The position numbers were made by a program, and so were the translations under genes. Below the pieces are notes generated by a model, which was not told the DNA's origin, made no database searches, and worked only from the letters and a program-made list of their open reading frames with translations. From a virus: DNA of 64,000 nucleotides. Location: the IMG/VR virus record IMGVR_UViG_3300034279_000305, positions 1-64,000 of that record. One strand, 5' to 3'. Numbering within the stretch: position 1 is the first letter of the stretch; the number at the start of each line of letters is the position of its first letter. Shown here one piece after another: positions 5,276-42,599 of this stretch.

Positions 5276-6086
5276 TTGTTGTTTCCTTTTGTTTGAATCT
5301 CCATAGATTCTTAGTTTCACCATCCTTGATCAACTCAACAACGGCCGTTTCTATGGCTGAACGGATCGCATAACTACCTGCTTCATTACTTGTTTGTTGT
5401 CCATCAAATTCAAACGCTTTAGTCGCCATATCGAAGAATGTGAAAGCAGTTACCCCCTCGGAAGTAGAGAGAACAGTTTTCTCTACAGTAACCGAATTGA
5501 GGACTTCACCAGTTTGGACAGAAACTAGGCGAAGACTAACTGTAACTTGGTCTTGTGTGTATTGCTGGTATGGACCGACGCCAAGGAATCTAGCACCAGT
5601 ACCACCAGTTTTAATATTCGAGTTATAATCAATGATACCACCTTCTATGATGATACCTGCAACCTTTAGCGGTGGAAGAGGTTCAGCACCTTCTCCAGAA
5701 ATCTGTTCGCGCATCTGGCGAACAAGTTGACGTTCTTTAATCAGCGAATCGATACCAACACGCTCAACAGGAATAAACCACTTACCATTACCTGTGTCTT
5801 GTAGAGTCTTAATCAGATATGCGTCTGCACCCTGAGTTACCGCAGTCGAGAAACTTGCAAGAGTTGAAGATGGTTTACGTTGACCAGTTCTATCGGTGAA
5901 CGAATATAATGCGATAGGAATTGGTTGTCCGTCTAACTCAGGAAGATCCTTGAACAACTTTGGATTAGCAAAACGTTTGACTTCTGCGTCATCTCTGAAC
6001 AGATATGATTGGTTGGCAGTAGGATGAAGTGCGCCAACACAACCAGAAAGGACGAGCAAAAGCGGAAGGAGAATTAACTTTTTCAT
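5262..6086 (-). CDS. csgG: CsgG-like curli secretion pore lipoprotein
   Basis: This 274-residue protein is close to E. coli CsgG in length (277). It has a type II signal peptide with lipobox LSGC (lipidated Cys16) and CsgG-family segments such as IALYSFTDRTGQRKPS, the GIIIEGGIIDYNSN strand and the C-terminal AIRSAIETAVVELI helix. CsgG forms a nonameric outer-membrane channel that exports curlin subunits. It sits 9 bases after csgF. CsgG-like genes are known in some marine T4-type phages, but here cognate fibre-subunit candidates follow directly. Confidence 0.93.
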   Translation of the reverse strand: MKKLILLPLLLVLSGCVGALHPTANQSYLFRDDAEVKRFANPKLFKDLPELDGQPIPIALYSFTDRTGQRKPSSTLASFSTAVTQGADAYLIKTLQDTGNGKWFIPVERVGIDSLIKERQLVRQMREQISGEGAEPLPPLKVAGIIIEGGIIDYNSNIKTGGTGARFLGVGPYQQYTQDQVTVSLRLVSVQTGEVLNSVTVEKTVLSTSEGVTAFTFFDMATKAFEFDGQQTSNEAGSYAIRSAIETAVVELIKDGETKNLWRFKQKETTNETK

Positions 6087-6095
6087 AACGTCTCC

Positions 6096-6545
6096 TTAGA
6101 ATGCGAATGTAGCAATAGGAACGACAACAACCGTAGTGTTACCATTCTTATCAACAACTGTCAGTCTAACTTCGGTTCCAGTCTTGACGTAACTTACGGA
6201 GTTACCGTCGAGGTTGAATGTCCCTGCACTGGCATTTCCACCTTCTGCGAACAGATTGTTCGAAAGTTGCGTAGCAAGTTGGGCATATACCTGAGAGGTA
6301 AACAGCGCCATGAATTTAGCGAGTGGCGTATTAGATGCCTCTGCTCTTGCTAGTGCTGCCTTTGCTGCCTCAGCATCTTTAATTGCCTGTTCACGCGAAC
6401 GCTCTTGCGAGTCGATTGATTGCACGTGTGAAGACCACCCATAACCAGTAAAGGAAGGTGATTTAAATTGTTGGACAATAGGATCTGCGTATACTGGACT
6501 ACTTAGACTTAGTAGTGCCAGGAGCATCGTCGCTCGTTTTAGCAT
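6096..6545 (-). CDS. csgF: CsgF-like curli assembly factor
   Basis: This 149-residue protein has a signal peptide (ending VYA). The mature N-terminus contains QQFKSPSFTGYG, matching the conserved CsgF segment that plugs the CsgG pore (E. coli QFRNPNFGG). The C-terminal half has the expected short beta strands (VRLTVVDKNGNTTVVVV). CsgF couples the secretion pore to fibre nucleation at the cell surface. It is the first gene of the curli-type module; no good sigma70 or TATAAATA promoter is evident in the 68 bases upstream. An Ala-rich helical insert (about 55-85) is longer than in E. coli. Confidence 0.88.
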   Translation of the reverse strand: MLKRATMLLALLSLSSPVYADPIVQQFKSPSFTGYGWSSHVQSIDSQERSREQAIKDAEAAKAALARAEASNTPLAKFMALFTSQVYAQLATQLSNNLFAEGGNASAGTFNLDGNSVSYVKTGTEVRLTVVDKNGNTTVVVVPIATFAF

Positions 6546-30474: not shown

Positions 30475-30503
30475 ATTCTACCCTAAAACGGAGATAAAGT
30501 CAA
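30475..30503 (-). promoter_or_regulatory. sigma70-like promoter (TAGAAT type)
   Basis: -35 TTGACT (30498-30503), 17-base spacer, -10 TAGAAT (30475-30480). Confidence 0.8.
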
Positions 30504-30820
30504 GCTTTAATTTCATCAAAACCAAACGTAGCACAACGGAACAGTTTTCCGTCTACCTCGAGGATGTCGCCTACTGACATCGAGGAGCAGGGACCGAGTT
30601 TCTCAACCGTAGCACCTTCCCAAAGATTCATGGCAGCGAATGCTTCTTCCATGTCAGCGGTATCAACGTTAGCAACGTGGGTATAATACTGGAAGTTCTC
30701 TGCCTTGAAGGGGACGGCAAACGAACGGGTGAAGTATGCCTGGATGCGGTCGCTAGTTTCGCCGTTGTTAACAGCAGTGATTTCAGCATCAGTCAGTTGA
30801 ATTTGGTAAACCTTAATCAT
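30500..30820 (-). CDS. Conserved phage hypothetical protein (106 aa)
   Basis: Start MIKVYQIQLT at 30820 after AAGGAATTG. The pattern YTHVANVDTADMEEAFAAMN followed by MSVGDILEVDGKLFRCATFGF is shared with small phage/plasmid YodL-like proteins. Function unknown. Confidence 0.65.
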   Translation of the reverse strand: MIKVYQIQLTDAEITAVNNGETSDRIQAYFTRSFAVPFKAENFQYYTHVANVDTADMEEAFAAMNLWEGATVEKLGPCSSMSVGDILEVDGKLFRCATFGFDEIKA

Positions 30821-30846
30821 TTTCAATTCCTTTTCTTATTGTTACC

Positions 30847-30908: not shown

Positions 30909-31430
30909 TTAAATTTTAAATTGGGCGAGGCAATCATCGTAAGATTCTCGCATTCCTCCTACTTGGAAGAATATCCTTTGTGCTTTGTTATCTGGCAACC
31001 CATGCACGATGGAGGTGTTGATCAGTGTCGCTTCGCTGGAATAATCATAGTTGCAGACCTCGACGTCATTCTCATACCAGACGATAGGAGCATGAAACGT
31101 TACAAGAGGTATGGATATTACTGCAGTTCTAGTGTCAGTGTGTTGCGGGAGTTTGCCCTCTACAAAGGATACCTGACTCCACTGGTATACGTGATTCGGA
31201 TCACTATACGGAGATTCTGGGACAAATAGGTCACTAATCTTCTTGAAGAGTTGGTGTTCTCTGTAGTCTTCAGTTGCATCTCGGAGAAAATATTGAGAGT
31301 ATTGTTCAATCGTATGACCCTGGACTACGTAATGATATGCCTGCGACTGATAGTTGTGTGACAGAAAATTCATAAATCTCCAATCAGTGCTGTCTAGTGC
31401 CAACCCGAGTGGTTTATAATAAGGGTACAT
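30909..31430 (-). CDS. 2OG-Fe(II) hydroxylase-like protein
   Basis: This is a 173-residue protein with a cupin-type oxygenase signature: LPQHTDTR (His/Asp iron ligands, about residues 95-99) and SIVHGLPDNKAQRIFFQV (distal His and Arg). It looks like a short aspartyl/asparaginyl hydroxylase or phytanoyl-type enzyme. It ends the 30.9-37.4 kb cassette; the neighbour at 31432 is another oxygenase of similar type. Substrate unknown. Confidence 0.72.
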   Translation of the reverse strand: MYPYYKPLGLALDSTDWRFMNFLSHNYQSQAYHYVVQGHTIEQYSQYFLRDATEDYREHQLFKKISDLFVPESPYSDPNHVYQWSQVSFVEGKLPQHTDTRTAVISIPLVTFHAPIVWYENDVEVCNYDYSSEATLINTSIVHGLPDNKAQRIFFQVGGMRESYDDCLAQFKI

Positions 31431-31431
31431 G

Positions 31432-32073
31432 CTAATATACTCTCATCTTTTTGATAAATTCTTTCATAGTCTCATAGTCAGAAGAAGCCTTAACATTCAA
31501 CACCAACATGGTGCAGTCATCGACATATGAGAACAAAGAATGTGCTTTGGTGGTATTCATAAAATACGTGGTCCCTTCTCTCAGTTGCACAACCTTACCA
31601 TCAAAAATCCAAGACATGCTTGACGAGTGAAAATTGTAGAATGGTACGACGATTCTAAACATGTCATTAGGCAGACCGAAATTGTGGTCTCTGTGTGGCG
31701 GGAAAAAACCACCCTTGTCTAACCGCAGGAAATGTGACCGACCCAAGTCTTCTCCGAAAAAATTTAACAGTTCATTTACTTCAGGTATCTCGCATGACAA
31801 AGGTGTGCGAGTTTTAAAATCAGAATCACGATGTATTATACCAGTTTCGTTATAATATTCTCCCAAACTTTCAAGATCCGGAACACCTGAGTATCCGCCA
31901 TCTAAACTGGTCATCGATAATCCGTAACGATTGTACCCCTGTTTATATGTGTTGTATTGCTTCCATTCTGGATGCCCGAGAATAAGATCTCTATACTTGT
32001 TTACGGGAATATTTGGAAATCCCAGTTCTATTATATCTCCATATGAGATTACGAATTCAGTTAGTGGGTTCAT
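31432..32073 (-). CDS. Aspartyl/asparaginyl hydroxylase-like oxygenase
   Basis: This is a 213-residue protein with FFPPHRDHN (HxD iron ligands, about residues 124-132), RIVVPFYN, and KAHSLFSYVDDCTMLVLNV (distal His), the beta-hydroxylase layout (Asp_Arg_Hydrox type). It probably hydroxylates an amino-acid side chain or small substrate. It sits one base from both neighbours in a cassette with radical SAM enzymes. Confidence 0.78.
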   Translation of the reverse strand: MNPLTEFVISYGDIIELGFPNIPVNKYRDLILGHPEWKQYNTYKQGYNRYGLSMTSLDGGYSGVPDLESLGEYYNETGIIHRDSDFKTRTPLSCEIPEVNELLNFFGEDLGRSHFLRLDKGGFFPPHRDHNFGLPNDMFRIVVPFYNFHSSSMSWIFDGKVVQLREGTTYFMNTTKAHSLFSYVDDCTMLVLNVKASSDYETMKEFIKKMRVY

Positions 32074-32754
32074 TTAATTAGTTCCTGGATCTATTTTGCC
32101 GAGTTGATCAAACGCCCACTGTCTTTCCCTACAATGGTAGCACCTGCCGCATCTGCCATATGTTTGCTGCGTGCAAGTATGAGATATCTCAAGCAATCTT
32201 TCGGTACCATGCATAAAATGTAAATCAATTGTATGCGATTTCATCAATTCATTGAACGGCATGCCCAGATATTCCGGAAATGGATTTGTATCTACTCTAT
32301 ACGGTTTTTCTTCTGGAGTAAGGATCAACTCGGACGTTTCTCTATTGTCCGCTAGATAAACAAACAGTTTCCCACCCGCTGCATATTCGTCGAATACTGC
32401 ACGAACGCTTTGTTGAATTTGTTGTGAGTGGTGTAGTTCTTGGACGTTTTCTGCACCAAAAATAGTAGGCGCAGGTAAGTTTATATCCAGCATCTCATTT
32501 ATGGCAGCGACTATTCCAGGCGAGTGCACCTCTGCACCATCTGTCTTGGGCACCGTAAAGATATACTTTATTTCATCGACACTACGACCCTTCTTGATCA
32601 ATTCTGAACAAATCATATACAATAAAATAGAACTGTCTGCCCCGCTACTCAACATAATCGCAAGGTGTCGGTTTTCGGGTAAAGGTAAAACGAAAGAACG
32701 TCTATCCTCCGTCGGTCCACAAGTAAATACTGAGAAAAAAGAAGTATCAATCAT
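32074..32754 (-). CDS. PP-loop ATP pyrophosphatase-like (QueC-like) protein
   Basis: This is a 226-residue protein with the PP-loop LSSGADSS (residues 35-42) that binds ATP for adenylating a substrate, and a C-terminal zinc cluster CGRCYHCRERQWAF (plus an earlier Cys), the layout of QueC (7-cyano-7-deazaguanine synthase). There are no QueD, QueE or FolE genes in this window, so deazaguanine synthesis cannot be claimed; another amide/nitrile or thiolation chemistry is possible. Confidence 0.7.
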   Translation of the reverse strand: MIDTSFFSVFTCGPTEDRRSFVLPLPENRHLAIMLSSGADSSILLYMICSELIKKGRSVDEIKYIFTVPKTDGAEVHSPGIVAAINEMLDINLPAPTIFGAENVQELHHSQQIQQSVRAVFDEYAAGGKLFVYLADNRETSELILTPEEKPYRVDTNPFPEYLGMPFNELMKSHTIDLHFMHGTERLLEISHTCTQQTYGRCGRCYHCRERQWAFDQLGKIDPGTN

Positions 32755-32809
32755 GCGGTTTCTCCCCGCAATTGCTGGAATTTGTCAACTTTAGCATTAC
32801 ATTTTTTCC

Positions 32810-34429
32810 TTATGTTTCAACATAATCTAACTTTTTCTTTTTATAATCTTCAATGAATGCAACTTTCGTATACTCCGAGGGACGAATACCGCCAAGTTGT
32901 CGAAACGATTTCATCATATCCTCATCAGTTTTTCCATCTACATACCAATCATCCATTCTCCAATGGTCGACTCCGTAATCTAAATAAGAATCATTCGCCC
33001 AGAAATTTTTGATGACCCATAGCACAACGTCCCTTTCTGTCAACCCTGTATTACTTTGCCATCTATTAAATAGGACTGATTCATCCATGTGTCGCATAAA
33101 CAATCTTACCTGATTTTTCATCTCGGGTTCAATCTGATTACTCTGGAATATAGGTAGTAATTCAGGATCATCCTCTGACAATTGATGCCCCTTGATGTCT
33201 ATTAATTTATATCCCTGTTTTTCGTACTGCGTTGACAATACGCTAGGACTGGTATTCTCTAACGTATTACTAGGAATAACCAATGGATGTATAAGTACGT
33301 TGTTGGTTTTCCAGTGTTCTTCGCACCATTTTAGAGTCTCACCCATTGTCTCTTCTGTGTCATACGGTAGTCCTGCGATGAGACTGATTGAACCTCTGTA
33401 ATACCCATTATGCTTTAGAAAGTATGCTTTGGTATCTAGAAGTACTTGTTTAATTTTATCGCTGTCCATACCCTTACCGATTGCAGCAGCACTTGGGCGA
33501 TTAAATGATTCTATACCATAAAATTGTCCGTTAAACTGCATGCGAGCTAAATGCTCTATGTCGCCTGGACGAGTGTGTAACAGATCGGCACGAATATAAC
33601 CGCCAAACAATGGTTTGAAGGAAAACTTTTCAACTTTATCTGCATATTTGATTATCTTATTGGTATAATCATTGAAAGTTTCATCTGCAATAGAATATCT
33701 GTATAACCCCCAGTTGTCATAATTTCGTATAAGATTGTCGCTAAAATCTTCTGCATCACGAGTATGATCATCCTTTACTCCCAGTACAGGATACGTGCAG
33801 AATGAACATTTGAACCGACACCCTCTGGATGTTTCTATGGTTGTATGCTCAAATGGTTGCATGAAATCACGGTTTTCATAATCAACAGATAAATTACGCA
33901 TAGGAAATGCAGGATAGTGTGCAATAGCATCGACAACTTTTCTCTTGTCCCCCTCCTTGTTAATGACTTCTTCTGTCCACTTAGCAGTGCCTTTCAAAAT
34001 CTCAAGCATGGCATGTTCACCATATCCTGTTACCATGTAGTCAGCAGGAATTAAATGTATGTTATGAAACTGCGTTGATCCAGTAATGATAGTAACGTCT
34101 GGATAAGTTTGCTTCAACCATGTAAAACAGCGATATAATGTCTCTGTGTTCATTCTAAACAATGCACCCAATCCAACAAATTTGAACGACGGTGACATTC
34201 GTGAACGTATCAACTGTTGAAATTCGCGAAATGTCCAAGAAGGAGCAAAATCAACAACCTCGACAGAGAGACCATTTTGACGCAAGAATGATGCAATTCT
34301 GTGCGCTCCTGCGCTTCGGCGAACGGAACTATAACTGATTGTTGCATCCTGCCGACGAAAACCCTTACTGTCCGTTGAAGGAGTTTCATCTATATTGATC
34401 ATACCACCAAAGATAATGCCATCAAGCAT
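32810..34429 (-). CDS. B12-binding-type radical SAM enzyme
   Basis: This is a 539-residue protein from the ATG at 34429 (GAGGTGG site just before). An N-terminal region like a B12-binding Rossmann domain (about 40-145, without a clear DxHxxG) precedes a radical SAM core with RGCRFKCSFC (three Cys for the 4Fe-4S cluster, about residues 204-211), then YGIESFNR and GLPYDTEET. This class includes methylases and ring-forming enzymes acting on unactivated carbons. The substrate is unknown; the cassette context suggests a small-molecule or peptide product. Confidence 0.82.
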   Translation of the reverse strand: MLDGIIFGGMINIDETPSTDSKGFRRQDATISYSSVRRSAGAHRIASFLRQNGLSVEVVDFAPSWTFREFQQLIRSRMSPSFKFVGLGALFRMNTETLYRCFTWLKQTYPDVTIITGSTQFHNIHLIPADYMVTGYGEHAMLEILKGTAKWTEEVINKEGDKRKVVDAIAHYPAFPMRNLSVDYENRDFMQPFEHTTIETSRGCRFKCSFCTYPVLGVKDDHTRDAEDFSDNLIRNYDNWGLYRYSIADETFNDYTNKIIKYADKVEKFSFKPLFGGYIRADLLHTRPGDIEHLARMQFNGQFYGIESFNRPSAAAIGKGMDSDKIKQVLLDTKAYFLKHNGYYRGSISLIAGLPYDTEETMGETLKWCEEHWKTNNVLIHPLVIPSNTLENTSPSVLSTQYEKQGYKLIDIKGHQLSEDDPELLPIFQSNQIEPEMKNQVRLFMRHMDESVLFNRWQSNTGLTERDVVLWVIKNFWANDSYLDYGVDHWRMDDWYVDGKTDEDMMKSFRQLGGIRPSEYTKVAFIEDYKKKKLDYVET

Positions 34430-35051
34430 CAATCCACCTCGCATCTTCTAGAATTTTCTTAAACTGTTCTTTATAGTGTTCATTCCAAATCATATACAAC
34501 ATCCATTGTTTTGTATAGTTAATTTTAAACGGTCCATTGTCGGGTAATGTATATGGGTGTATTCTGAAGTTTGGTTTTCCAAAATGCTTCCCGTCCTCGT
34601 AGTAATACTTAGGATAATTCACAGGATCGTTTATTGCCAGATATCTAAGTAATCTCTTGTTAAATTCATTGGCAGTATTGATTGCTCCATACCTTCCTGC
34701 TTCGATGCTACGATCTATTGCTATCGTATGAATGTCACCGTGTGCTCTTGCGAGTTGCATTCCTGGAATAGTATAACTACGCGAACTCAAATGTGTCATG
34801 TGAGAATCTATGTTCGATTCATGATATCCACCTCCACAAAGTATTTTACCATCTCTTCGGTAGAGAATATATCCATTTCCAAGTCCATCATATCTCTTTT
34901 GAACATACAACGCATGTAGAAACGAAGATCGAGTATTCTCCCAATTAACGGGACTCATGTTTGTTGCTCCAGGTCTTGTATCATCTATTGCATGGTTACA
35001 GAATGGCAACAACTGATCAATGGGATATGTGCTGTCTATCTGTTCAAACAT
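34422..35051 (-). CDS. GNAT-like hypothetical protein
   Basis: This is a 209-residue protein. YILYRRDGKILCGGGYHES and the later HTIAIDRSIEAGRYGAINTANEFNKRLLRYL recall strand 4 and the CoA-loop helix of GNAT acyltransferases, but the CoA motif is not clear. The rest is aromatic-rich and unassigned. Its start shares TAATG with the upstream radical SAM gene. Confidence 0.5.
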   Translation of the reverse strand: MFEQIDSTYPIDQLLPFCNHAIDDTRPGATNMSPVNWENTRSSFLHALYVQKRYDGLGNGYILYRRDGKILCGGGYHESNIDSHMTHLSSRSYTIPGMQLARAHGDIHTIAIDRSIEAGRYGAINTANEFNKRLLRYLAINDPVNYPKYYYEDGKHFGKPNFRIHPYTLPDNGPFKINYTKQWMLYMIWNEHYKEQFKKILEDARWIDA

Positions 35052-36055
35052 TACCCAATCTCCGCATAATGACATTTTCTACAAATCTCATCTCTGGCGC
35101 GAACGATTACCTCAGCATGTGTTTCGGACACCCATATATCACTCAGAGAAGATTTCGAAAGGTCTCCGAAAACATACTCCATGTTGTAATCATTGCAGCA
35201 AAGAAAAGTTTCTCCCAAAGAATTTATATGAATCCATTCAGTAGTTCTATCCGTCTTAACATCTTCAAATCCCCGACAACCTATGACAGTGCCAGTTTTT
35301 AATCTCTCTTCGATCGAAGGTTGGTTTGAAATTAAAGACGACAACAATCCTGCTCTATCATGCAGCACGTATTCCTTGTATGGGATGAAGTTCTTAAACT
35401 TTCTCTTGGCAAATTTGTACGCCTGGAAACGTTCTCCCTTTACTGGATGCATATCAATTTGCAGGTTATTTAATTCCTCGCCTCTGTGAATGTCATTATC
35501 CCAGACCTTATCGTCGACCCCATTAATCAGTATGATCAAATTATCAAAGTCTGCCAGTTCTGTATCTGCATATTCTAAATTTGCTATCAATCTATCGTAT
35601 TGATTGACATGCAACCCAGAACGACTTGCCCAAGTTTCTGGTTCGAATGATGGGATGTTCAGTATAATCTCAGAGATAACATCCTTATTAGACTTGATCA
35701 TGTCTATCTTTTTGGGAGTAAGATTAATCCCATTGCTGAAAATGGTAGTGGTGAAGTTATACTTGCGAAGTAACTCCAGAAATTCTTCGAGATACCTATA
35801 CAATAACACCTCACCGTAGTGTGCAGTGTAGATGTTTCTCATTGAGAGAGATACAACTCCACTCTCGTCGTTACGATGCGATGCCAAATCGGCAAGAATC
35901 TTTTCTACTAGATCTAGAGGCATGTGCACCCTTGTTCGCTCAGGCTGTGGGATATATTTTACTGGACAATACCAGCATGCAGCATTACAGAACCCAAACA
36001 AGTCAAGTTGGACGTGTTGGATCTTTATGTCCCGTAAGTTCTGTAAAAGATTCAT
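35051..36055 (-). CDS. Radical SAM/SPASM-like enzyme
   Basis: This is a 334-residue protein. The radical SAM motif FCNAACWYCP (C23, C27, C30) opens a TIM-barrel-like core, and the C-terminal third has further Cys (IGCRGFE, FLCCNDYN, CRKCH), which fits SPASM auxiliary iron-sulfur clusters. SPASM enzymes modify peptides or sugars. The neighbouring Coq4 and glycosyltransferase genes do not reveal the substrate. Start in an ATGA overlap with Coq4. Confidence 0.85.
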   Translation of the reverse strand: MNLLQNLRDIKIQHVQLDLFGFCNAACWYCPVKYIPQPERTRVHMPLDLVEKILADLASHRNDESGVVSLSMRNIYTAHYGEVLLYRYLEEFLELLRKYNFTTTIFSNGINLTPKKIDMIKSNKDVISEIILNIPSFEPETWASRSGLHVNQYDRLIANLEYADTELADFDNLIILINGVDDKVWDNDIHRGEELNNLQIDMHPVKGERFQAYKFAKRKFKNFIPYKEYVLHDRAGLLSSLISNQPSIEERLKTGTVIGCRGFEDVKTDRTTEWIHINSLGETFLCCNDYNMEYVFGDLSKSSLSDIWVSETHAEVIVRARDEICRKCHYAEIG

Positions 36056-36696
36056 GATATAATATTAAGACGAATTCGTGCTTCTTCTAAATCTTCATTA
36101 AACAGGTCATCATAATTTTCTGCAAGTAAGAACTTAGCATTCTTCCCTCGTAGATATGCATGTTGGACCATCGACAGATTTTTGTATGTAAGACCATACT
36201 TCAACAAACCAAGCAGACATATCGCGATCCAACCAATTGATTTTGTTTGTGCAAACGAAAATGCAGCAAGGCAAATTTCGCCTGTATCATTTGCAGGATA
36301 TCCTGTCAATGTATGCCAAGTGTCATGTGTGTCGCGATATCTGCGTGCCATCCAATTATACGGATGTTTCGCTTCGATCCATTTACTGTTGTTTGATTTT
36401 CTCCTGCTGAGTTTCAGCAGGATTTCTTGGTTTGGAAATAGTTTGTGGCATTCTCTACCAACAGACCCTTCTGGTCTCTCGGAAAGTGTCGGGAAATACT
36501 CGGAAATTTCTTCAGAGGAGTATGCTATCTCACCACCCGATTCAGTCTTCATTAACTGATCGAGACTCCAGCGTAATGATGGAGGATTTAATGCATGAAG
36601 GATCTCGAAAATGAAAATTGTATTCGCAGGATTTCTACGAAGTTTCTTAAATGCTTTGTATGCACGAAGATAGTCAATTTTGTATTCTAGACTCAT
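36052..36696 (-). CDS. coq4: Coq4-family protein
   Basis: This is a 214-residue protein. RDTHDTWHTLTGYPANDTGE gives the Coq4 metal motif HDxxH-x11-E (H124, D125, H128, E140), followed by the family's AFSFAQTKSIGW helix. Coq4 scaffolds ubiquinone biosynthesis and has been linked to oxidative decarboxylation of the ring. Its presence in a phage cassette with radical SAM and 2OG enzymes is unusual. Whether it acts on quinones here is unknown. Confidence 0.82.
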   Translation of the reverse strand: MSLEYKIDYLRAYKAFKKLRRNPANTIFIFEILHALNPPSLRWSLDQLMKTESGGEIAYSSEEISEYFPTLSERPEGSVGRECHKLFPNQEILLKLSRRKSNNSKWIEAKHPYNWMARRYRDTHDTWHTLTGYPANDTGEICLAAFSFAQTKSIGWIAICLLGLLKYGLTYKNLSMVQHAYLRGKNAKFLLAENYDDLFNEDLEEARIRLNIIS

Positions 36697-37432
36697 TTAC
36701 AATAACCTTCAATTCGCGAAGCACTTTCTTAATTTCAATTGGATTACTTAGGAAGGCATAGAAGTTTCCACTATCTTCCAAGTCATAGACATATAGATGC
36801 TCATCAGTAAGAACATAGTTTATGTCTGGATTATAGTATAATTTATATGATGCTACGACATCCTCTGAACCGAGAAATGTCTCGTCGAAATTGAAGGAAT
36901 TGACAACTTTGTTAGAATACAGTAACATTCTATTTTGCAGAAGATTTGCCGCCAAAAATTTACCAAGTTCGATTAGGCGTAATCCATGCGAACCTTTTAC
37001 GTTCGCGAACTTGTAGATATCAGCGCTGTTGAAGAATGCATTACCAGTGGTATTATTTCCATTATATGTCATAACTCCATCAATCAAACCAACCACATCA
37101 ACATCGGGATTATCGTCCACGATCGTAGCGAGTTTGCTCAATGCATCAGGAGCGAGATAATCATCAGCATCGACTTGCATATAATAGTCATGCGGGCGAG
37201 ATCGGAAAATCTCTAGAACAGAATTCTTTCCCCTCGCAGGTGTCCCGTTAGATTCAGTTACCAGAAACTCTACATTGTATTCCTCTGCAACAGATCTCGC
37301 TTGCTCTACAAATGAAAAATCGAGAGTGTTACATACCACAACCACATCACTGGTTTGAGGTAGAACACTCTCGATACAACGTTTTAATTTTTCAACATCC
37401 CTTGAAGTAAGGAGTGCAACCAATATGTTCAT
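36674..37432 (-). CDS. Family 2 glycosyltransferase
   Basis: This is a 252-residue GT-A protein. ILVALLTSRDVEKLKRCIESVL opens the nucleotide-sugar fold, and VDADDYLAPDALSKL gives the DxD metal motif (D88, D90). A later FLGSEDVVASYKL helix fits the acceptor side. It transfers a sugar from a nucleotide donor. It is coupled to coq4 (23-base overlap) and to the 37429 gene (ATGA). Confidence 0.87.
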   Translation of the reverse strand: MNILVALLTSRDVEKLKRCIESVLPQTSDVVVVCNTLDFSFVEQARSVAEEYNVEFLVTESNGTPARGKNSVLEIFRSRPHDYYMQVDADDYLAPDALSKLATIVDDNPDVDVVGLIDGVMTYNGNNTTGNAFFNSADIYKFANVKGSHGLRLIELGKFLAANLLQNRMLLYSNKVVNSFNFDETFLGSEDVVASYKLYYNPDINYVLTDEHLYVYDLEDSGNFYAFLSNPIEIKKVLRELKVIVNESRIQN

Positions 37433-37746
37433 CCGATCAATGAACCTCCTGCTTTCTTCTTCGCCTTGGCAACTGCCTCTTGCGTCTTGACAGTCTTATG
37501 GTCTTTTTTACCATAGTCTTTGGCAAGGGGACTGTTGGGATTCGCGTCTGCAATTTTCGACATCACTTCCTTGAAGTGGTCTGGTGGTTTGACGCCATCA
37601 CCTACACCACCGATAATATTCGGTGCAGTTATACCTTGGATAAGGTGTGGATTTTTCTCTAGAAACTCTTGTAATGCGTCAAATGAACCCCAGAAATCAT
37701 CCTGAGGTTCACGTGTCTCTGCATCTAAAACTGTATATAAGGGCAT
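37429..37746 (-). CDS. Conserved phage protein (105 aa)
   Basis: The start MPLYTVLDAETREPQDDFWGSFDALQEF and the middle FKEVMSKIADANPNSPLAKDYGKK are typical of a small conserved T4-type phage family related to FmdB-like proteins but without the zinc Cys. The C-terminus is Lys-rich. Function unknown. Confidence 0.7.
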   Translation of the reverse strand: MPLYTVLDAETREPQDDFWGSFDALQEFLEKNPHLIQGITAPNIIGGVGDGVKPPDHFKEVMSKIADANPNSPLAKDYGKKDHKTVKTQEAVAKAKKKAGGSLIG

Positions 37747-37774: not shown

Positions 37775-37850
37775 TGGTACGGAGTGACGGGCTCGAACCG
37801 CCGACATTCTGCGTGTAAAGCAGACGCTCTACCAACTGAGCTAACCCCGC
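37775..37850 (-). tRNA. tRNA-Val (TAC)
   Basis: Complete cloverleaf with encoded CCA; loop TTTACAC. The acceptor overlaps the stop of the DUF458 gene by 10 bases. Confidence 0.92.
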
Positions 37851-38278
37851 ACAACGTGGTCCGCTGCATGGGTGGCAGCGAACGAATCAGGTTTGACCTT
37901 GGCATCAATACCAGTCGAACCCTTAACGTATCCCAGTGCTTCTTTCACTGCGATATTACTCTTATACCTTGGATTTGGATTTAAGTCAAGGTGTATTTCC
38001 AATTTTCTTTGACCAACTACGTCTAAAATTGCAGTTGCTGCTTCAATAGCAAATCCTGCTTCAGTAATTAGACGTTGACGTAGATTGCCAAAGTCGCGCA
38101 TCTCTACGTTTCTAGAGAATAAATTACCACCATGCTTAGAATCCTTGTGGAGAATAATAACAGTGGAATACTTAGCAAACCAAAGACCGTTGCGTTTGAA
38201 TCGAATGGAGTCCGCACCTACATAAACAGATGACGTCTCGCTTGAATTTAGAATTGCTTGTCTTGCTTCATCATACAT
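37841..38278 (-). CDS. RNase H-like DUF458 family protein
   Basis: This is a 145-residue protein. SVYVGADSIRFKR, LHKDSKHGGNLFSRNVEMRDFG, EIHLDLNP and the C-terminal KPDSFAATHAADHVVR match YkuK/DUF458, an RNase H-fold family with acidic catalytic positions. Role unproven, perhaps RNA processing. It sits inside the tRNA array between tRNA-Val and tRNA-Trp, and its stop lies inside tRNA-Val. Confidence 0.8.
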   Translation of the reverse strand: MYDEARQAILNSSETSSVYVGADSIRFKRNGLWFAKYSTVIILHKDSKHGGNLFSRNVEMRDFGNLRQRLITEAGFAIEAATAILDVVGQRKLEIHLDLNPNPRYKSNIAVKEALGYVKGSTGIDAKVKPDSFAATHAADHVVRG

Positions 38279-38296
38279 AGGTCACCTATTGAAAAT

Positions 38297-38373
38297 TGGC
38301 GGCGGGTGGTAGGAATTGAACCTACTTCTCAAGGTTTTGGAGACCCGTGGATTACCGTTTTCCCTCACCCCCG
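38297..38373 (-). tRNA. tRNA-Trp (CCA), atypical acceptor
   Basis: The loop CTCCAAA gives anticodon CCA, and the T-arm and 3' CCA are normal. The acceptor strands (CGGGGGTG and CACCCGCC) have two mismatches and one nucleotide extra, and the base after the acceptor is A instead of T8. It may be degenerate. Confidence 0.65.
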
Positions 38374-38387
38374 TAATACTTATAAAA

Positions 38388-38464
<77 letters not shown>

Positions 38465-38525
38465 AAAGTCAAGTCGCACTGTGACGCCTGACCCCGTACT
38501 GCCCAGAAAAACAGTACGTCGTATA

Positions 38526-38607
38526 TGGTACCCAAGATAGGATTCGAACCTACATCTTACTTCCAGTTACCTTTGGCTCCGTTCGTAGCGGAGAGGGATA
38601 CTTGGGC
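38526..38607 (-). tRNA. Aberrant tRNA-like gene (possible Arg ACG, no D-arm)
   Basis: Perfect acceptor (GCCCAAG/CTTGGGT), normal T-arm and encoded CCA. Between acceptor and a 5-bp hairpin with loop CTACGAA (anticodon ACG, T33) there are only 7 bases, so no D-arm. A 23-base segment with a D-loop-like AAGGTAAC follows the hairpin. Confidence 0.5.
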
Positions 38608-38612
38608 AAAAA

Positions 38613-38687
38613 TGGAGCGGGAGATCGGGATCGAACCGACGACGAACAGCTTGGAAGGCTGACACTCTACCACTGAGTTACACCCGC
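38613..38687 (-). tRNA. tRNA-Gly (TCC)
   Basis: Canonical, loop CTTCCAA, CCA encoded. Confidence 0.93.
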
Positions 38688-38695
38688 ATTAAACT

Positions 38696-38703
38696 TATTT
38701 ATA
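38696..38703 (-). promoter_or_regulatory. TATAAATA box between tRNA genes
   Basis: Exact late-promoter octamer on the minus strand in the 17-base spacer before tRNA-Gly. Confidence 0.45.
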
Positions 38704-38704
38704 T

Positions 38705-38781
38705 TGGCGACTCGTACGGGACTTGAACCCGTGGCCTCTAGCGTGACAGGCTAGCGATCTAACCAACTGATCTAACGAGCC
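38705..38781 (-). tRNA. tRNA-Asp (GTC)
   Basis: Canonical, loop CTGTCAC, CCA encoded. Confidence 0.93.
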
Positions 38782-38786
38782 TAAAC

Positions 38787-38872
38787 TGGTGGACAGGGTT
38801 GGATTCGAACCAACGTAGCATTACTGCGGCAGATTTACAGTCTGCTGGTATTAACCACTCACCCACCTATCC
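38787..38872 (-). tRNA. tRNA-Tyr (GTA)
   Basis: 86 bases with a long variable arm, loop CTGTAAA, CCA encoded. Confidence 0.93.
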
Positions 38873-38877
38873 AAAAA

Positions 38878-38954
38878 TGGTGCTCCCGAACGGATTCGAA
38901 CCGCTGACACGTGGTTCTTCAAACCACTGCTCTACCAACTGAGCTACAGGAGCA
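38878..38954 (-). tRNA. tRNA-Phe (GAA)
   Basis: Canonical, loop TTGAAGA, CCA encoded. Confidence 0.93.
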
Positions 38955-38959
38955 TATAA

Positions 38960-39042
38960 TGGTACGCCTAGAGGGACTCGAACCCCCACGCTTTCGCACT
39001 GGTACCTAAAACCAGCGTGTCTACCAATTCCACCATAGGCGC
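38960..39042 (-). tRNA. tRNA-Leu (TAG)
   Basis: Class II with variable arm, loop TTTAGGT, CCA encoded. Confidence 0.92.
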
Positions 39043-39052
39043 ATAAAAGAGT

Positions 39053-39165
39053 GACCACCTAAGTGTGCCTTGATTGCTTACTTCGCGACGTTGCAATCTT
39101 CCCATGTGAAGAAATATATTGCAAATTATTTCCGCACAACTTCTCGAGGTTCAGCATAGGTGGTC
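39053..39165 (-). ncRNA. Structured RNA candidate in tRNA array
   Basis: A 9-bp closing stem (GACCACCTA with TAGGTGGTC) encloses about 95 bases that hold a second hairpin, TTGCAAT...ATTGCAA, with an inner CTTC/GAAG stem. There is no tRNA T-arm or CCA and no convincing frame. It could be a small RNA or a processed spacer. Confidence 0.4.
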
Positions 39166-39170
39166 TATAT

Positions 39171-39246
39171 TGGTGGAGAATAACGGGATCGAACCGTTCA
39201 CCTTCTGCGTGCAAGGCAGACGCTCTACCGAATGAGCTAATTCCCC
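39171..39246 (-). tRNA. tRNA-Ala (TGC)
   Basis: Canonical, loop CTTGCAC, CCA encoded. Confidence 0.93.
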
Positions 39247-39249
39247 GAA

Positions 39250-39333
39250 TCTATAAAGCGAAGTGGGAGGATTCAGTTGTACCTCCATGACCCAGTCAAT
39301 TACTATCTGTAATCTCGGTCAACGACTCGTTAC
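39250..39333 (-). other. Noncoding, hairpin-rich spacer
   Basis: No gene. It holds the hairpin ATTAC-AGATA-GTAAT, a flanking TGACC/GGGTCA pair and a GGAGG/CCTCC pair, which together could fold like a small multibranched RNA. Confidence 0.35.
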
Positions 39334-39407
39334 TGGTTAAGAGGAGTACCACTCCCCGAGTCTACATTATCCCCACTGACGAGGGGATTATTCAGTCACA
39401 CTTCTTA
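39334..39407 (-). tRNA. Possible degenerate tRNA-like element
   Basis: 74 bases with acceptor TAAGAAG against CCTCTTA (one mismatch), discriminator A and CCA, and a strong central stem ATCCCC/GGGGAT with an 8-base loop. The T-arm is abnormal (GGAGT-GGT-ACTCC) and the D-arm unclear. Anticodon not assignable. Confidence 0.35.
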
Positions 39408-39430
39408 CGCCGACCGTCGCCAGCGATATT

Positions 39431-39509
39431 TGGTTGCAGAGGTTGGATTTGAACCAACGATTTCCGGCTTATGAGACCAGCGAGGACGACCAGACTCCTC
39501 TACTCCGCG
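39431..39509 (-). tRNA. Initiator tRNA-fMet (CAT)
   Basis: Loop CTCATAA gives CAT. The acceptor has the initiator hallmark C1 opposite A72 (CGCGGAG with CTCTGCA), with CCA encoded. The anticodon stem has two G-C pairs next to the loop end (GG/CC), not the usual three. Confidence 0.8.
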
Positions 39510-39515
39510 ATAAAC

Positions 39516-39591
39516 TGGCTCCCTAAGATGGATTCGAACCACCGACCAATTGATTAACAGTCAACTGCGCTACCGCTGCGCCATTAGGGAA
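39516..39591 (-). tRNA. tRNA-Asn (GTT)
   Basis: Canonical, loop TGTTAAT, CCA encoded. Confidence 0.93.
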
Positions 39592-39597
39592 TAAGAA

Positions 39598-39673
<76 letters not shown>

Positions 39674-39748
39674 AAAACTTATTTAAAGAACACACTATAT
39701 GCCTATTGACACGCATCTTAAGCGGGACTCACAATAATGTGCTCATTA

Positions 39749-39770
39749 AATAAGTCTCGAAAGACTTATT
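39749..39770 (-). other. Perfect 9-bp hairpin with TTCG loop
   Basis: Minus strand AATAAGTCT-TTCG-AGACTTATT. A UUCG tetraloop is very stable. It lies in the leader of the tRNA transcript, so it may be a processing or stability element; no T-run follows on the minus strand. Confidence 0.6.
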
Positions 39771-39801
39771 TTATTATAACAATGTCAAAGAGCAGGAACT
39801 T

Positions 39802-39809
39802 TATTTATA
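39802..39809 (-). promoter_or_regulatory. TATAAATA late-promoter box
   Basis: Exact octamer directly downstream of the sigma70 -10 box at 39811, giving a tandem early/late control point for tRNAs from 39673 down. Confidence 0.6.
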
Positions 39810-39810
39810 C

Positions 39811-39839
39811 ATTCTACTACAATTTTTGTAGAAAGTCAA
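39811..39839 (-). promoter_or_regulatory. sigma70-like promoter for tRNA array
   Basis: -35 TTGACT (39834-39839), 17-base spacer, -10 TAGAAT (39811-39816). Confidence 0.8.
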
Positions 39840-39868
39840 CACTTATTTTCATTTTTACCAAAATAATT

Positions 39869-39944
39869 TGGTAGGGTCGGTGGGACTCGAACCCACACTG
39901 GAGGGATTTTAAGTCCCTTGTCTCTGCCTTTGGACTACGACCCC
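39869..39944 (-). tRNA. tRNA with TAA anticodon (Leu codon UUA) but short variable loop
   Basis: 76 bases, loop CTTAAAA gives anticodon TAA, CCA encoded, all arms present. The variable loop has only 5 bases, unlike the class II arm expected of bacterial tRNA-Leu, so charging identity is uncertain. Confidence 0.8.
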
Positions 39945-39945
39945 A

Positions 39946-40023
39946 TGGGGTGGAAGACGGGACTCGAACCCGCGACATTCGGCATCACAAGCCGACGCTC
40001 TAACCAACTGAGCTACAACCACC
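39946..40023 (-). tRNA. tRNA-His (GTG)
   Basis: Loop TTGTGAT, extra G at -1 opposite C73, CCA encoded. Two adjacent T-T mismatches (5-68, 6-67) in the acceptor. Confidence 0.88.
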
Positions 40024-40024
40024 A

Positions 40025-40113
40025 TGGCGGAACATCAGGGAGTCGAACCCTGTCTACCCTTTACAGGTAGTACGCATTAGCAGTGCGCTGCATTACCGTC
40101 CTGCCCATGTTCC
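40025..40113 (-). tRNA. tRNA-Ser (GCT)
   Basis: 89 bases with class II arm, anticodon GCT, CCA encoded. Confidence 0.92.
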
Positions 40114-40118
40114 AAACC

Positions 40119-40197
40119 TGGAGCGCCGAGTCGGATTCGAACCGACGACTGGAAGGATTTGCAGTCCTTTGCATTTGACCACTCTGCCATCGGCGCT
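40119..40197 (-). tRNA. tRNA-Cys (GCA)
   Basis: Loop CTGCAAA, CCA encoded, long D-loop region. Confidence 0.9.
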
Positions 40198-40269
40198 TGG
40201 TACCAGCAGTAGGTAACGCTCCTACCAAACCAACCTTATGAGAGTCGGTCGGACACTTATCCTGCTGGC
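40198..40269 (-). tRNA. Aberrant tRNA-like gene (CAT anticodon)
   Basis: 72 bases directly abutting tRNA-Cys. Perfect acceptor (GCCAGCA/TGCTGGT) and CCA; anticodon loop CTCATAA. Bases 8-9 appear missing, the D-stem has 3 bp (GGA/TCC), and the T-loop reads AGCGTTA instead of TTCRANN. Confidence 0.55.
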
Positions 40270-40271
40270 AT

Positions 40272-40348
40272 TGGTGCGTCTAGTAGGCTCCGACCCTACG
40301 ACCTCACGGTTATCAGCCGTGTGCTCTACCAACTGAGCTATAGACGCA
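40272..40348 (-). tRNA. tRNA-Ile (GAT)
   Basis: Loop CTGATAA, CCA encoded. The T-loop GTCGGAG differs from the usual TTCRANN. Confidence 0.88.
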
Positions 40349-40354
40349 TTAACT

Positions 40355-40549
40355 CTACTTCGAATCTGCCTGCGGAGTTACTGCCGCATCTAGAGGTTTT
40401 TCTGCTGCTTCTTCTGTTGCATTTGCTGTAGCAAGTGCTTCATCTGCTGCAGGACCAGCAGCTTCTGCAACTGATGGCGTTTCTGCGCTGGGAGCACATG
40501 CTGCTGTAAGTGCTACAACTGCTGCTGCCATAAAAGTCTTGATATTCAT
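40355..40549 (-). CDS. Small Ala-rich lipoprotein
   Basis: This is a 64-residue protein with a lipoprotein signal (lipobox LTAAC, Cys18) and an Ala/Glu/Pro-rich mature part without structure motifs. It lies alone among tRNAs after a 77-base leader. It might be an envelope or spanin-like lipoprotein, but no partner is seen. Bases 40550-40626 hold no gene. Confidence 0.7.
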   Translation of the reverse strand: MNIKTFMAAAVVALTAACAPSAETPSVAEAAGPAADEALATANATEEAAEKPLDAAVTPQADSK

Positions 40550-40626
40550 ATTATTACTTCCTTCGTTAATAGAGTTTGAGAGACTAACCGTGATCTCTCG
40601 CGTGCTTATTAAGTAGCAACCCTAAC

Positions 40627-40702
40627 TGGTGGACACTCTGGGGCTTGAACCCAGGACCTACAGGTTAAAAGCCCGTTGCTCTACCTACTGAGCTAAGTGT
40701 CC
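40627..40702 (-). tRNA. tRNA-Lys (TTT)
   Basis: Canonical, loop CTTTTAA, CCA encoded. Confidence 0.93.
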
Positions 40703-40707
40703 GAAAC

Positions 40708-40783
40708 TGGTAGACCCTGTTGGATTCGAACCAACGACCTGCGGATTAAGAGTCCGATGCTCTACCGACTGAGCTAAGGGTCC
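40708..40783 (-). tRNA. tRNA-Lys (CTT)
   Basis: Canonical, loop CTCTTAA, CCA encoded. Second Lys isoacceptor. Confidence 0.92.
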
Positions 40784-40789
40784 ATAAAC

Positions 40790-40865
40790 TGGTAGACGAG
40801 GAGGGACTCGAACCCCCAACCAAACCGTTATGAGCGGTCGGCTCTAACCATTGAGCTACTCGTCT
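40790..40865 (-). tRNA. tRNA with CAT anticodon (elongator Met or lysidine-type Ile)
   Basis: Canonical, loop CTCATAA, CCA encoded. Acceptor starts A1-T72, unlike the initiator. Met and k2C-Ile cannot be told apart from sequence here. Confidence 0.9.
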
Positions 40866-41064
40866 AGATGTAGATTCGATGCTCGAAATCCGGATTCACA
40901 TGAGCGCCAACTACTTGACGCACGATGTAATAATAATCGATGAACCGATCACCGTCACGAGTATACACACCATGGGCATTCCGTGCTTCATCTTCCGACG
41001 CATACACGCCAAGGAGCACAGAACCTGCCATATCGAACTCACCTAGTAATGCAAAAACTTCCAT
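40864..41064 (-). CDS. Small hypothetical protein (66 aa)
   Basis: It starts MEVFALLGEFDMAGSVLLGVYASEDEAR, a beta-hairpin then helix pattern found in small phage proteins. Its stop overlaps tRNA-CAT by 2 bases. Own promoter at 41092. Function unknown. Confidence 0.7.
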   Translation of the reverse strand: MEVFALLGEFDMAGSVLLGVYASEDEARNAHGVYTRDGDRFIDYYYIVRQVVGAHVNPDFEHRIYI

Positions 41065-41091
41065 AACAATTTCCTTTCAAACTATACACAC

Positions 41092-41120
41092 AGTATACCC
41101 CAGATTTAAGAAAAAGTCAA
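41092..41120 (-). promoter_or_regulatory. sigma70-like promoter
   Basis: -35 TTGACT (41115-41120), 17-base spacer, -10 TATACT (41092-41097). Confidence 0.85.
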
Positions 41121-41152
41121 GCCCCTATTTTGCATTTTATCAAATTATTTTT

Positions 41153-41229
41153 TGGTGACCCCTACGGGATTCGAACCCGTGATCTTCGCCGTGAAAGGGC
41201 GATGTCCTAGACCGCTAGACGAAGGGGCC
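41153..41229 (-). tRNA. tRNA-Glu (TTC)
   Basis: Canonical, loop CTTTCAC, CCA encoded. Confidence 0.93.
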
Positions 41230-41231
41230 AA

Positions 41232-41320
<89 letters not shown>

Positions 41321-41326
41321 TAAACG

Positions 41327-41563
41327 TTAGAGACCAATCGCGGTACGATATGTCTCTAGAATCATATCTTCTTCTTGCCGAATATGCGCTTCCTTTTTAC
41401 GGAGACGAATAATCTGGCGAGTCGCTTTAGCATCGTAACCTTCGCCTTTCAACTCAGAATAGACTTCCTTACGATCTGCCTTCCTAGCATCAAGATCCGC
41501 TTCGATATTTTCGATGCGCTCGATGAAGAGGCGATACTTATCAACTGCAATAATGTCACTCAT
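41327..41563 (-). CDS. GapR-like DNA-binding protein (DUF2312)
   Basis: This is a 78-residue protein. YRLFIERIENIEADLDARKADR then VYSELKGEGYDAKATRQIIRLRKKE matches the GapR-like family, a coiled-coil tetramer that clamps overtwisted DNA ahead of replication and transcription in Alphaproteobacteria. A phage copy might assist topoisomerases on phage DNA or replace host GapR. The family is largely alphaproteobacterial, so it hints at the host. Confidence 0.88.
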   Translation of the reverse strand: MSDIIAVDKYRLFIERIENIEADLDARKADRKEVYSELKGEGYDAKATRQIIRLRKKEAHIRQEEDMILETYRTAIGL

Positions 41564-41580
41564 AATATTCTCCTACAAAA

Positions 41581-41656
41581 TGGATGCCCCGTCAGGTCTC
41601 GAACCTGAACTCTTCTGAATCAAAATCAGACGTGTTGCCAATTACACCACGGGGCA
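41581..41656 (-). tRNA. tRNA-Gln (TTG)
   Basis: Canonical, loop TTTTGAT, CCA encoded. First tRNA of the array in transcription order. Confidence 0.93.
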
Positions 41657-41719: not shown

Positions 41720-42214
41720 CTATTTGTATGGGTCGTAATTTCTTCCCCATAACCATCCACTCGGTAGACTGAACGATCTTGGGTCGACCAGATGCGTCTT
41801 ACCACTAGGTTCAACACACCACCTTCGCACCCGCATACTTTGCATAAGACTCATCTTGCGACGAGTCTCGTAGGAGTGCCTCCGATTATACATCGGATTA
41901 TTCTCTCCCCGACGAGTTCCCTTCATCGTCCTGCTAATCTTTGCTCGATGCTCGTCTGACAATCCATTGGCATTTGGGTTTTTACTACCCTTCTTTGCCT
42001 CGGCAATTTTCTCTCTGCCTTCTGGAGTGTGCAATCTATTTCGTCGGCGAGTTACCTTGTCAACGACTTTAGAGATCTTTTGTTGCTTAGAAGCAGTTTC
42101 GCGAATCAACTCAATGTTGGTTGTCTGTAGAATCAGTTCGCGAGGTTTTGGGACGATTGTTGGATCTTTTACGATCCACAGTTCCGTTTTATGTTGAAAG
42201 AGGTAAAACCTCAT
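41720..42214 (-). CDS. NUMOD3-repeat DNA-binding protein
   Basis: This is a 164-residue basic protein with two or three NUMOD3-type units (HTPEGREKIAEAKKG, LSDEHRAKISRTMKG, YETRRKMSLMQ with a GENNPMYNRRH link). NUMOD3 is the DNA-binding module of many homing endonucleases. I see no GIY-YIG or HNH catalytic part, so it is either a remnant of a homing enzyme or a pure DNA-binding protein. It overlaps the end of speD by 26 bases. Confidence 0.75.
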   Translation of the reverse strand: MRFYLFQHKTELWIVKDPTIVPKPRELILQTTNIELIRETASKQQKISKVVDKVTRRRNRLHTPEGREKIAEAKKGSKNPNANGLSDEHRAKISRTMKGTRRGENNPMYNRRHSYETRRKMSLMQSMRVRRWCVEPSGKTHLVDPRSFSLPSGWLWGRNYDPYK

Positions 42215-42599
42215 TTACAATGCCTTTATCAATCAACGTCAAATCATGTTCCCGATCAATGTATTTAAACTCTACATGGTCTGGATCAAATTCCTGTAGC
42301 GCCTCGAAGACATCCTTCGTATTTAGCGCCGAGCACGTATACACATCCAGTTGCATGAGAGCAGGAGAAACCTCATCCCAAACATGCATAGCAATATGCG
42401 ATGTTTCGATAATAGTAACTGCAGTCAAACCACGATTGCCTTCCATGTCACTGTAAACAGCATATGGACCCATTAGTATCTTCATACCAATTTTATCAAC
42501 CAGAGTCTTCATCCAGTCCTGGATTGCCTCTGCGCATTGTGGTGGATTCTTCAATTCAGCTCTGATAATCAGATGTTTATGCTCAAGAATTTGCCCCAT
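42189..42599 (-). CDS. speD: S-adenosylmethionine decarboxylase-like (SpeD)
   Basis: This is a 136-residue protein with the class I SpeD signature: ETSHIAMHVWDE, where S67 would become the pyruvoyl cofactor after self-cleavage, and DVYTC with the catalytic Cys (C89). The enzyme makes decarboxylated SAM for spermidine synthesis. SpeD occurs in several marine T4-type phages. A TATAAATA box lies 35 bases upstream and AAGGA precedes the ATG. Confidence 0.9.
   Translation of the reverse strand: MGQILEHKHLIIRAELKNPPQCAEAIQDWMKTLVDKIGMKILMGPYAVYSDMEGNRGLTAVTIIETSHIAMHVWDEVSPALMQLDVYTCSALNTKDVFEALQEFDPDHVEFKYIDREHDLTLIDKGIVNEVLPLST

Follow-up and report, generated by a model that had tools for sequence, protein, structure and literature searches.

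Among the closest known systems to the one considered here are some from T4-like aquatic phages: hypervariable regions of pelagimyophage genomes carry cassettes of glycosyltransferase and radical S-adenosylmethionine (SAM) genes, and fonsimyophages carry fabF together with a stearoyl-CoA desaturase (PMC7029224). We analyzed a cassette of eight enzyme genes (positions 30909-37432, minus strand) in a stretch of viral DNA, the window, which comprises bases 1-64000 of the 86,961-base IMG/VR virus record IMGVR_UViG_3300034279_000305. The genes are transcribed in the order GT2 (a glycosyltransferase), Coq4, a SPASM-type radical SAM enzyme, GN (a GNAT-fold protein), B12-RSAM (a B12-type radical SAM enzyme), PPL (a QueC-fold PP-loop protein), and OX2 and OX1 (two probable 2-oxoglutarate (2OG) oxygenases). 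Comparison with related phages identifies a conserved, modular enzyme cassette of aquatic T4-like phages. Our tentative reading, to which we give a probability of about 0.38, is that its enzymes form a modular pathway, apparently specific to phages, which builds or decorates a product carrying both acyl and sugar groups, most likely a lipid-like part of the envelope of the infected host.

The kind of cassette is partly known already from the pelagimyophages and fonsimyophages, which share with the window phage the same enzyme kinds and curli genes; the sections of that report covered here describe no unit of Coq4, GNAT and QueC-like genes and propose no pathway (PMC7029224). A phage cassette of this composition did not come up in our literature searches. 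The cultured pelagimyophage Mosig EXVC030M, a Pelagibacter phage (MT647606, 52-69 kb), has an analogous enzyme set in tight runs. Its OX2 homologue, the sole match for OX2 in 50,697 phage records (36% identity), lies in a run of FA_desaturase, aminotransferase, TauD, methylase, acetyltransferase and Asp/Arg hydroxylase genes, with a nitroreductase and two MoaA-like genes on the opposite strand, and by our own profiles the desaturase (E 1.9e-37) and the OX2 homologue are both relatives. The 16.6 kb of Mosig examined hold no match to our profiles for Coq4, GN, PPL, B12-RSAM or GT2, and the part of its genome announcement covered does not discuss these genes.

The DNA polymerase of the window phage is ~50% identical to those of T4-like Synechococcus phages, and the phage is therefore a distant relative of that group. 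For the phages compared below, the aquatic setting is taken from their relatives, with no sample record behind the label.

Core and exchangeable genes

We scanned viral contigs with single proteins and with alignments, and merged identical phages; three further records represent the window phage itself (100% protein identity) and were not counted separately. GT2, Coq4 and GN stand in this order in 12 distinct phages including the window phage, with lowest pairwise identities of 0.29 (GT2), 0.35 (Coq4) and 0.36 (GN). In the window phage the SPASM gene separates Coq4 from GN; in the remaining 11 phages GN comes directly after Coq4, and the ends of the two genes overlap. Record G007 has no Coq4: a distant GN lies behind a GT2, and a 232-residue protein without a Pfam family occupies Coq4's place (L092 6281-8401).

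The distance matrices of GT2 and Coq4 agree (r 0.85, Mantel p 0.0005, n = 12), as do those of B12-RSAM and PPL (r 0.81, p 0.03, n = 5); each gene was compared through a single unmasked MAFFT alignment, with 5 to 12 phages behind each figure, and GT2 as called in L039, L057 and L060 is too long, its start reaching into a tRNA gene. On sequence distances, GT2 and Coq4 are inherited together, and the remaining genes recombine yet hold their place.

What follows GN differs between phages. L025 carries B12-RSAM, PPL and OX2, and L028 the same three plus a sulfotransferase-like gene. PPL, B12-RSAM, a sulfotransferase-like gene and another radical SAM gene follow in L024; a desaturase, a radical SAM gene, PPL, OX2 and a sulfotransferase-like gene in L026; and a radical SAM gene, PPL and OX2 in L027. 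L059 has a radical SAM gene, B12-RSAM, an SGNH-like gene, PPL, an SDR-like gene and a 2OG gene, and L044 has B12-RSAM, an SDR-like gene and a 2OG gene. In L066 the series is a methyltransferase, a sulfotransferase-like gene, an AMP-binding ligase, a 94-residue protein and OX2; the ligase stands where PPL is missing, and by family both would be ATP-using carboxylate activators. The variable elements are both radical SAM genes, the place of the PPL gene and the last 2OG gene. Pfam searches were judged against each family's own cut-off, and names that no Pfam call backs (sulfotransferase-like, SGNH-like, SDR-like, terminase, sheath, IscU/IscA, metK, UDP-sugar dehydrogenase and others of this sort) were read by eye from the translations. 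The L026 desaturase, to which Pfam gives no match, was identified by its matches to solved acyl-CoA desaturases.

The first-pass annotation had proposed that the block resembles a biosynthetic cluster of tailoring enzymes. The kinds of genes agree with this, and the genes exchanged downstream are likewise of one kind. The concern that this gene order might be conserved nowhere falls away because the core order recurs in other phages; a fixed cluster is not what we find, the rest being modular. Tight junctions, also put forward for the block, are present (6 of 7 junctions overlap or are no more than one base wide) and carry little weight by themselves, because 44 of the 89 minus-strand junctions in the rest of the record lie within 5 bases or overlap. 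What exceeds chance is the order kept in other phages, not the packing.

Pattern-based alignment scans of 84,980 species found no bacterial relatives of GN or PPL, although such scans need a conserved peptide, so that absence is unproven; they covered these two proteins, and no bacterial scan was made with Coq4, GT2, OX2 or the radical SAM proteins. Among cultured phages, tblastn (E 1e-5) gave no match for Coq4, B12-RSAM, the SPASM enzyme, PPL, GN, OX1 or a GN from the nrd locus described below, and one partial match for GT2 with no cassette beside it by our own profiles. In a DNA-level search, the 20 records listed, of 342, were matches to the tRNA region.

Recurrent partners of the GNAT-fold protein

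GN is the hub of the association network. Counting from loci L024 upwards, with window-phage duplicates and a few repeats left out, we found 71 copies (many of them repeats of one contig) that form 24 clusters at 85% identity, all in phages: 11 with GT2-Coq4, nine between nrdA and nrdB, and four others. The Coq4-associated copies form a single clade (support 94/98).

The same partners meet GN at unrelated places. A desaturase adjoins it in 6 of the 24 clusters, at four separate positions in the tree (the nrd clade, L036, L068 and L077); of 500 shufflings of the labels, 143 gave desaturase clustering as low as this, an outcome compatible with several independent gains but no test of significance. 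PPL lies within four genes of GN in 9 of the 24; two of these clusters are at the nrd locus, remote from the cassette. The nrd-locus copies belong to T4-like phages (L069-L075, L110, L112, L117, L120, L122 and L123) and often have a desaturase, PPL or a nitroreductase adjoining; among their nine clusters the desaturase is beside GN in three and PPL in two, one of the latter with a cytidylyltransferase between. The desaturases of L110, L112 and L120 were called from our own profile and reading by eye. In L076 a beta-ketoacyl synthase overlaps GN. This repeated pairing is the best evidence of a functional link and points to acyl chemistry.

By its predicted structure GN has a GNAT fold. The model aligns with 3gya at a VIA Z of 12.5 (142 residues, root-mean-square deviation 2.7), reaches Z of at least 8 to 608 of 999 chains, and in Foldseek places the acyl-homoserine-lactone synthase LasI at rank 22. 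The canonical coenzyme A (CoA) loop of GNAT proteins, Q/RxxGxG/A, lies between strand 4 and helix 3; GN lacks it there, and the sole match to the motif, at residue 61, is outside the loop. Only 1 of 19 GN members reaches even E 0.2 against Pfam Acetyltransf_1, and the GN profile gives only chance-like matches against PDB sequences.

Enzymes and surroundings of the window cassette

All eight open reading frames (ORFs) named in the first-pass annotation lie where it placed them, on the minus strand (Table 1). Its enzyme identities are backed by profiles, folds or motifs, more weakly for the B12 domain and the OX2 profile, which fall below the Pfam cut-offs, and for OX1, which is named from its motif.

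Table 1. Cassette genes in transcription order, and flanking features, with window positions
Feature	Position	Strand	Basis and remarks
GT2 glycosyltransferase, first gene of the cassette	36674..37432	-	PF00535 (Glycos_transf_2) E 6.5e-11, above cut-off; DxD-type motif DAD, residue 88
Coq4-family protein	36052..36696	-	PF05019 58.5 bits vs cut-off 22.9; intact HDxxH-(x)11-E from residue 124
SPASM radical SAM enzyme, short SPASM/twitch C-terminus	35051..36055	-	PF04055 and PF13186 above cut-off; CxxxCxxC at residue 23
GN, GNAT-fold protein	34422..35075	-	No Pfam family; AlphaFold pLDDT 92.3
B12-RSAM, B12-type radical SAM enzyme	32810..34444	-	PF04055 above cut-off; CxxxCxxC at residue 209
PPL, QueC-fold PP-loop protein	32074..32754	-	QueC (PF06508) 22.1 bits vs cut-off 22.0, barely over
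OX2, Asp/Arg-hydroxylase-like 2OG oxygenase	31432..32073	-	PF05118 (Asp_Arg_Hydrox) E 6.5e-4, 20.0 vs cut-off 22.6; HRD 127-129, H178
OX1, probable 2OG oxygenase	30909..31430	-	Motif only: HTD 97-99, H143; no Pfam family even at E 1
Array of 22 tRNA genes	37775..41656	-	Directly upstream of the cassette
PHROG 385 protein (named transcriptional regulator)	37429..37746	-	Flanking phage gene; overlaps the GT2 start
Small conserved protein	30500..30826	-	Directly downstream of the cassette in related phages; no Pfam family

Coq4 of ubiquinone biosynthesis, a C1 decarboxylase/hydroxylase, shares with the phage protein its family profile and HDxxH-(x)11-E, the metal motif of Coq4 (PMC8826242); unlike it, the phage clade has a glycosyltransferase and a GNAT protein as neighbours. 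Binding of prenyl lipid by Coq4 proteins, and their action on quinone precursors, have been reported (PMC8826242, PMC11495197, in the parts covered). Residues H124, D125, H128 and E140 are invariant in 6 phages, the PF05019 cut-off is passed by 17 of 32 related records, and a profile search against the PDB retrieves Alr8543 (6e12, E 1.6e-10). No further ubiquinone genes were noticed in the ORF list of the 86,961-base record, read by eye.

PPL shares with QueC, Cap9 (type IV CBASS) and QatC the fold, the PP-loop and a four-cysteine site. Its model (pLDDT 86) gives VIA Z scores of 14.3 with Cap9, 13.6 with QueC, 11.8 with QatC and 10.7 with the TilS-like MesJ. The motifs SSGADS and C-x7-C-x2-C-x2-C are variants of QueC's PP-loop SGGxDS and C(x)8CxxCxxC; the C(x)7C spacing and PFx4K resemble Cap9, and the QueC assignment combines a fold Z of 13.6 with a thin Pfam margin of 0.1 bits. 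PPL differs from the QueC family in having no match to Y.DC, Y.Q.H..E or VP.RN, the motifs YxDC, YxQxHxxE and VPxRN that are tied to deazaguanine substrate and catalysis (PMC13329287, PMC13279940, in the parts covered), and 7-carboxy-7-deazaguanine is therefore an unlikely substrate; for QueC itself the substrate and ATP motifs are given as YPDC, YxQxHxxE and VPxRN (PMC13329287). The substrate residues given for Cap9 in the sections covered are YxDC and Y/FxQ(x)5E (PMC13329287), with Y115/D117 (PMC13279940); YxDC is absent from PPL, and the Y/FxQ(x)5E variant was not searched on its own. A canonical QueC or deazaguanine route was rejected, as PPL lacks these motifs and the phage record lacks QueD (PF01242, present in 1 of 10 phage records searched). 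Membership in a CBASS or Qat defence system was likewise rejected: PADLOC gave QueC at E 6.5e-4 and matched the SPASM enzyme weakly to pVip, and no partner genes were noticed. In L085 (2108-3425) PPL lies between IscU-like and IscA-like genes, which raises the question of an iron-sulfur cluster on its four cysteines.

The SPASM enzyme was found in records of the window phage only, and its nearest solved relative is BtrN (E 2e-7). B12-RSAM scores 22.4 bits for the B12-binding domain PF02310 (cut-off 32.1) and matches several NCBIfam B12-radical SAM families at E down to 6e-16, far below their own cut-offs. In L009 (7011-11602) a lone B12-radical SAM gene lies near a SAM synthetase gene named by eye. 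Both putative oxygenases have an HxD...H triad; that of OX2 (HRD and H178) is invariant in 5 phages, and OX1 was found in the window phage only.

A tRNA array precedes the GT2-Coq4-GN trio in all 11 phages with upstream sequence (L059 starts inside GT2), a position that may reflect a hotspot or shared descent. The PHROG 385 gene is located elsewhere in L024 and L044. A SAM decarboxylase family gene (42189-42599) adjoins the array. Consecutive CHASE2-cyclase, FecR, curlin-repeat-like, CsgG and CsgF genes at 1-6545 of the window make up a phage set for curli secretion resembling that reported for pelagimyophages; here a curlin-repeat protein, scoring below the Pfam cut-off, lies next to CsgG. 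Beyond the window, the same genome (G000 68353-73092) has two GT2-like genes, one 2OG-like gene and one radical SAM gene, the last 75% identical to one in the L027 cassette.

Possible products of the cassette and competing explanations

The gene identities, the conserved order, the swaps and the recurrence of desaturase and PPL beside GN were computed here; from them we infer one shared product, its acyl or lipid nature, an envelope target and a purpose. PPL, or an ANL ligase where PPL is missing, would activate a carboxylic or acyl group, which GN would transfer. GT2 could supply a sugar carried by the acceptor, Coq4 might trim or hydroxylate a ring or prenyl-like part, and the radical SAM and 2OG enzymes would finish the product. 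Decorations specific to each phage could include B12-type methylation or other radical C-H chemistry, desaturation, sulfation, O-methylation and hydroxylation, and an altered envelope could block superinfection. The AMP-binding ligase of L066, which lacks PPL, and the ketoacyl synthase overlapping GN in L076 count for this reading, as do the reported lipid and quinone-precursor activities of Coq4 proteins and the analogous run in Mosig. A more specific version is somewhat less likely: a combinatorial pathway of aquatic T4-like phages, so far seen in phages only, with a fixed GT2-Coq4-GNAT core and interchangeable activating (QueC-fold or ANL) and decorating enzymes, through which each phage might, while infecting, make its own variant of an acylated glycoconjugate.

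Several observations weigh against an acylated envelope product made by one pathway. The label 'acyl' rests on relatives, because the window cassette itself has no desaturase, synthase or ligase. GN distances show no agreement with those of GT2 or Coq4 (r 0.05 and 0.09), so the unit recombines. The trio occurs without the rest of the set beside it in L039, L057 and L060, and among the 12 trio phages PPL is found in seven, OX2 in six and B12-RSAM in eight (six in the cassette, L060 ~3 kb upstream and L039 elsewhere in the same record). Members also occur singly: GN between nrdA and nrdB, B12-RSAM near metK, PPL between the IscU-like and IscA-like genes of L085, and, in a further T4-like lineage, a Coq4-family gene flanked by terminase-like and tail-sheath-like genes (L045, L046, L050, L054). 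Finally, the acetyltransferase of Mosig is no relative of GN by our own profile.

Much of this would be expected if a plastic T4-like genome region beside the tRNA array collects unrelated auxiliary metabolic genes, each enzyme having a role of its own, whose adjacency comes from exchange between related phages. We regard this explanation as possible but unproven, and it keeps its standing because of the lone Coq4, B12-RSAM and PPL genes and the constant position of the trio behind tRNA genes. The coming and going of members, the solitary GN copies, the equally tight junctions in half of the genome and the hypervariable glycosyltransferase and radical SAM cassettes described in the parts of the pelagimyophage study covered (PMC7029224) also fit it. 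It accounts poorly for the co-inheritance of GT2 and Coq4 (r 0.85), an order fixed down to 29-36% identity, and the renewed pairing of GN with desaturase and PPL at a second location.

Modification of an envelope glycan (LPS/O-chain-like) without lipid chemistry, with superinfection blocked by changes that the GT2, GNAT, radical SAM, sulfotransferase and 2OG enzymes would make to surface sugars, appears improbable. GT2, GNAT and BtrN-like radical SAM enzymes are common in sugar tailoring, BtrN is the nearest solved relative of the SPASM enzyme, a UDP-sugar-dehydrogenase-like gene is present in L076 and L087, and such a role has been proposed for pelagimyophage glycosyltransferases in the sections covered (PMC7029224). 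Coq4, and the desaturase, ketoacyl synthase and PPL beside GN, would be left unaccounted for.

A role in hypermodification of tRNA or other nucleic acid seems still less credible. Pathways of tRNA modification do employ QueC-fold, radical SAM and 2OG enzymes, and the trio follows a tRNA array wherever upstream sequence is available. PPL lacks the substrate residues of QueC, however, QueD is confined to a single other record among those searched, no tRNA gene lies close to those GN copies of the nrd locus that were examined, and a desaturase and a ketoacyl synthase are a misfit.

A cluster for a ribosomally synthesized and post-translationally modified peptide, an option the first-pass annotation had raised and for which it can be said that radical SAM/SPASM, GNAT, 2OG and PP-loop enzymes tailor peptides elsewhere, is very improbable: the eight genes leave just 56 of the 6524 cassette bases uncovered, 55 in a single gap, and of the 174 small ORFs collected from nine cassette regions none falls inside the window cassette (a precursor elsewhere in the genome is not excluded), and small ORFs conserved in at least 3 regions resemble flanking phage genes, their shadows or parts of the tRNA array.

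Phages are known for borrowing single metabolic genes; a conserved, recombining series of tailoring enzymes with no bacterial counterpart in the scans made would mean that they evolve small-molecule pathways of their own. New chemistry may come with it, from a ligase of QueC fold, a GNAT-fold enzyme lacking the usual CoA loop and a phage branch of Coq4, and part of this is testable in the cultured phage Mosig with its analogous set. Such a pathway could be a new way for these phages to remodel the surface of their hosts.

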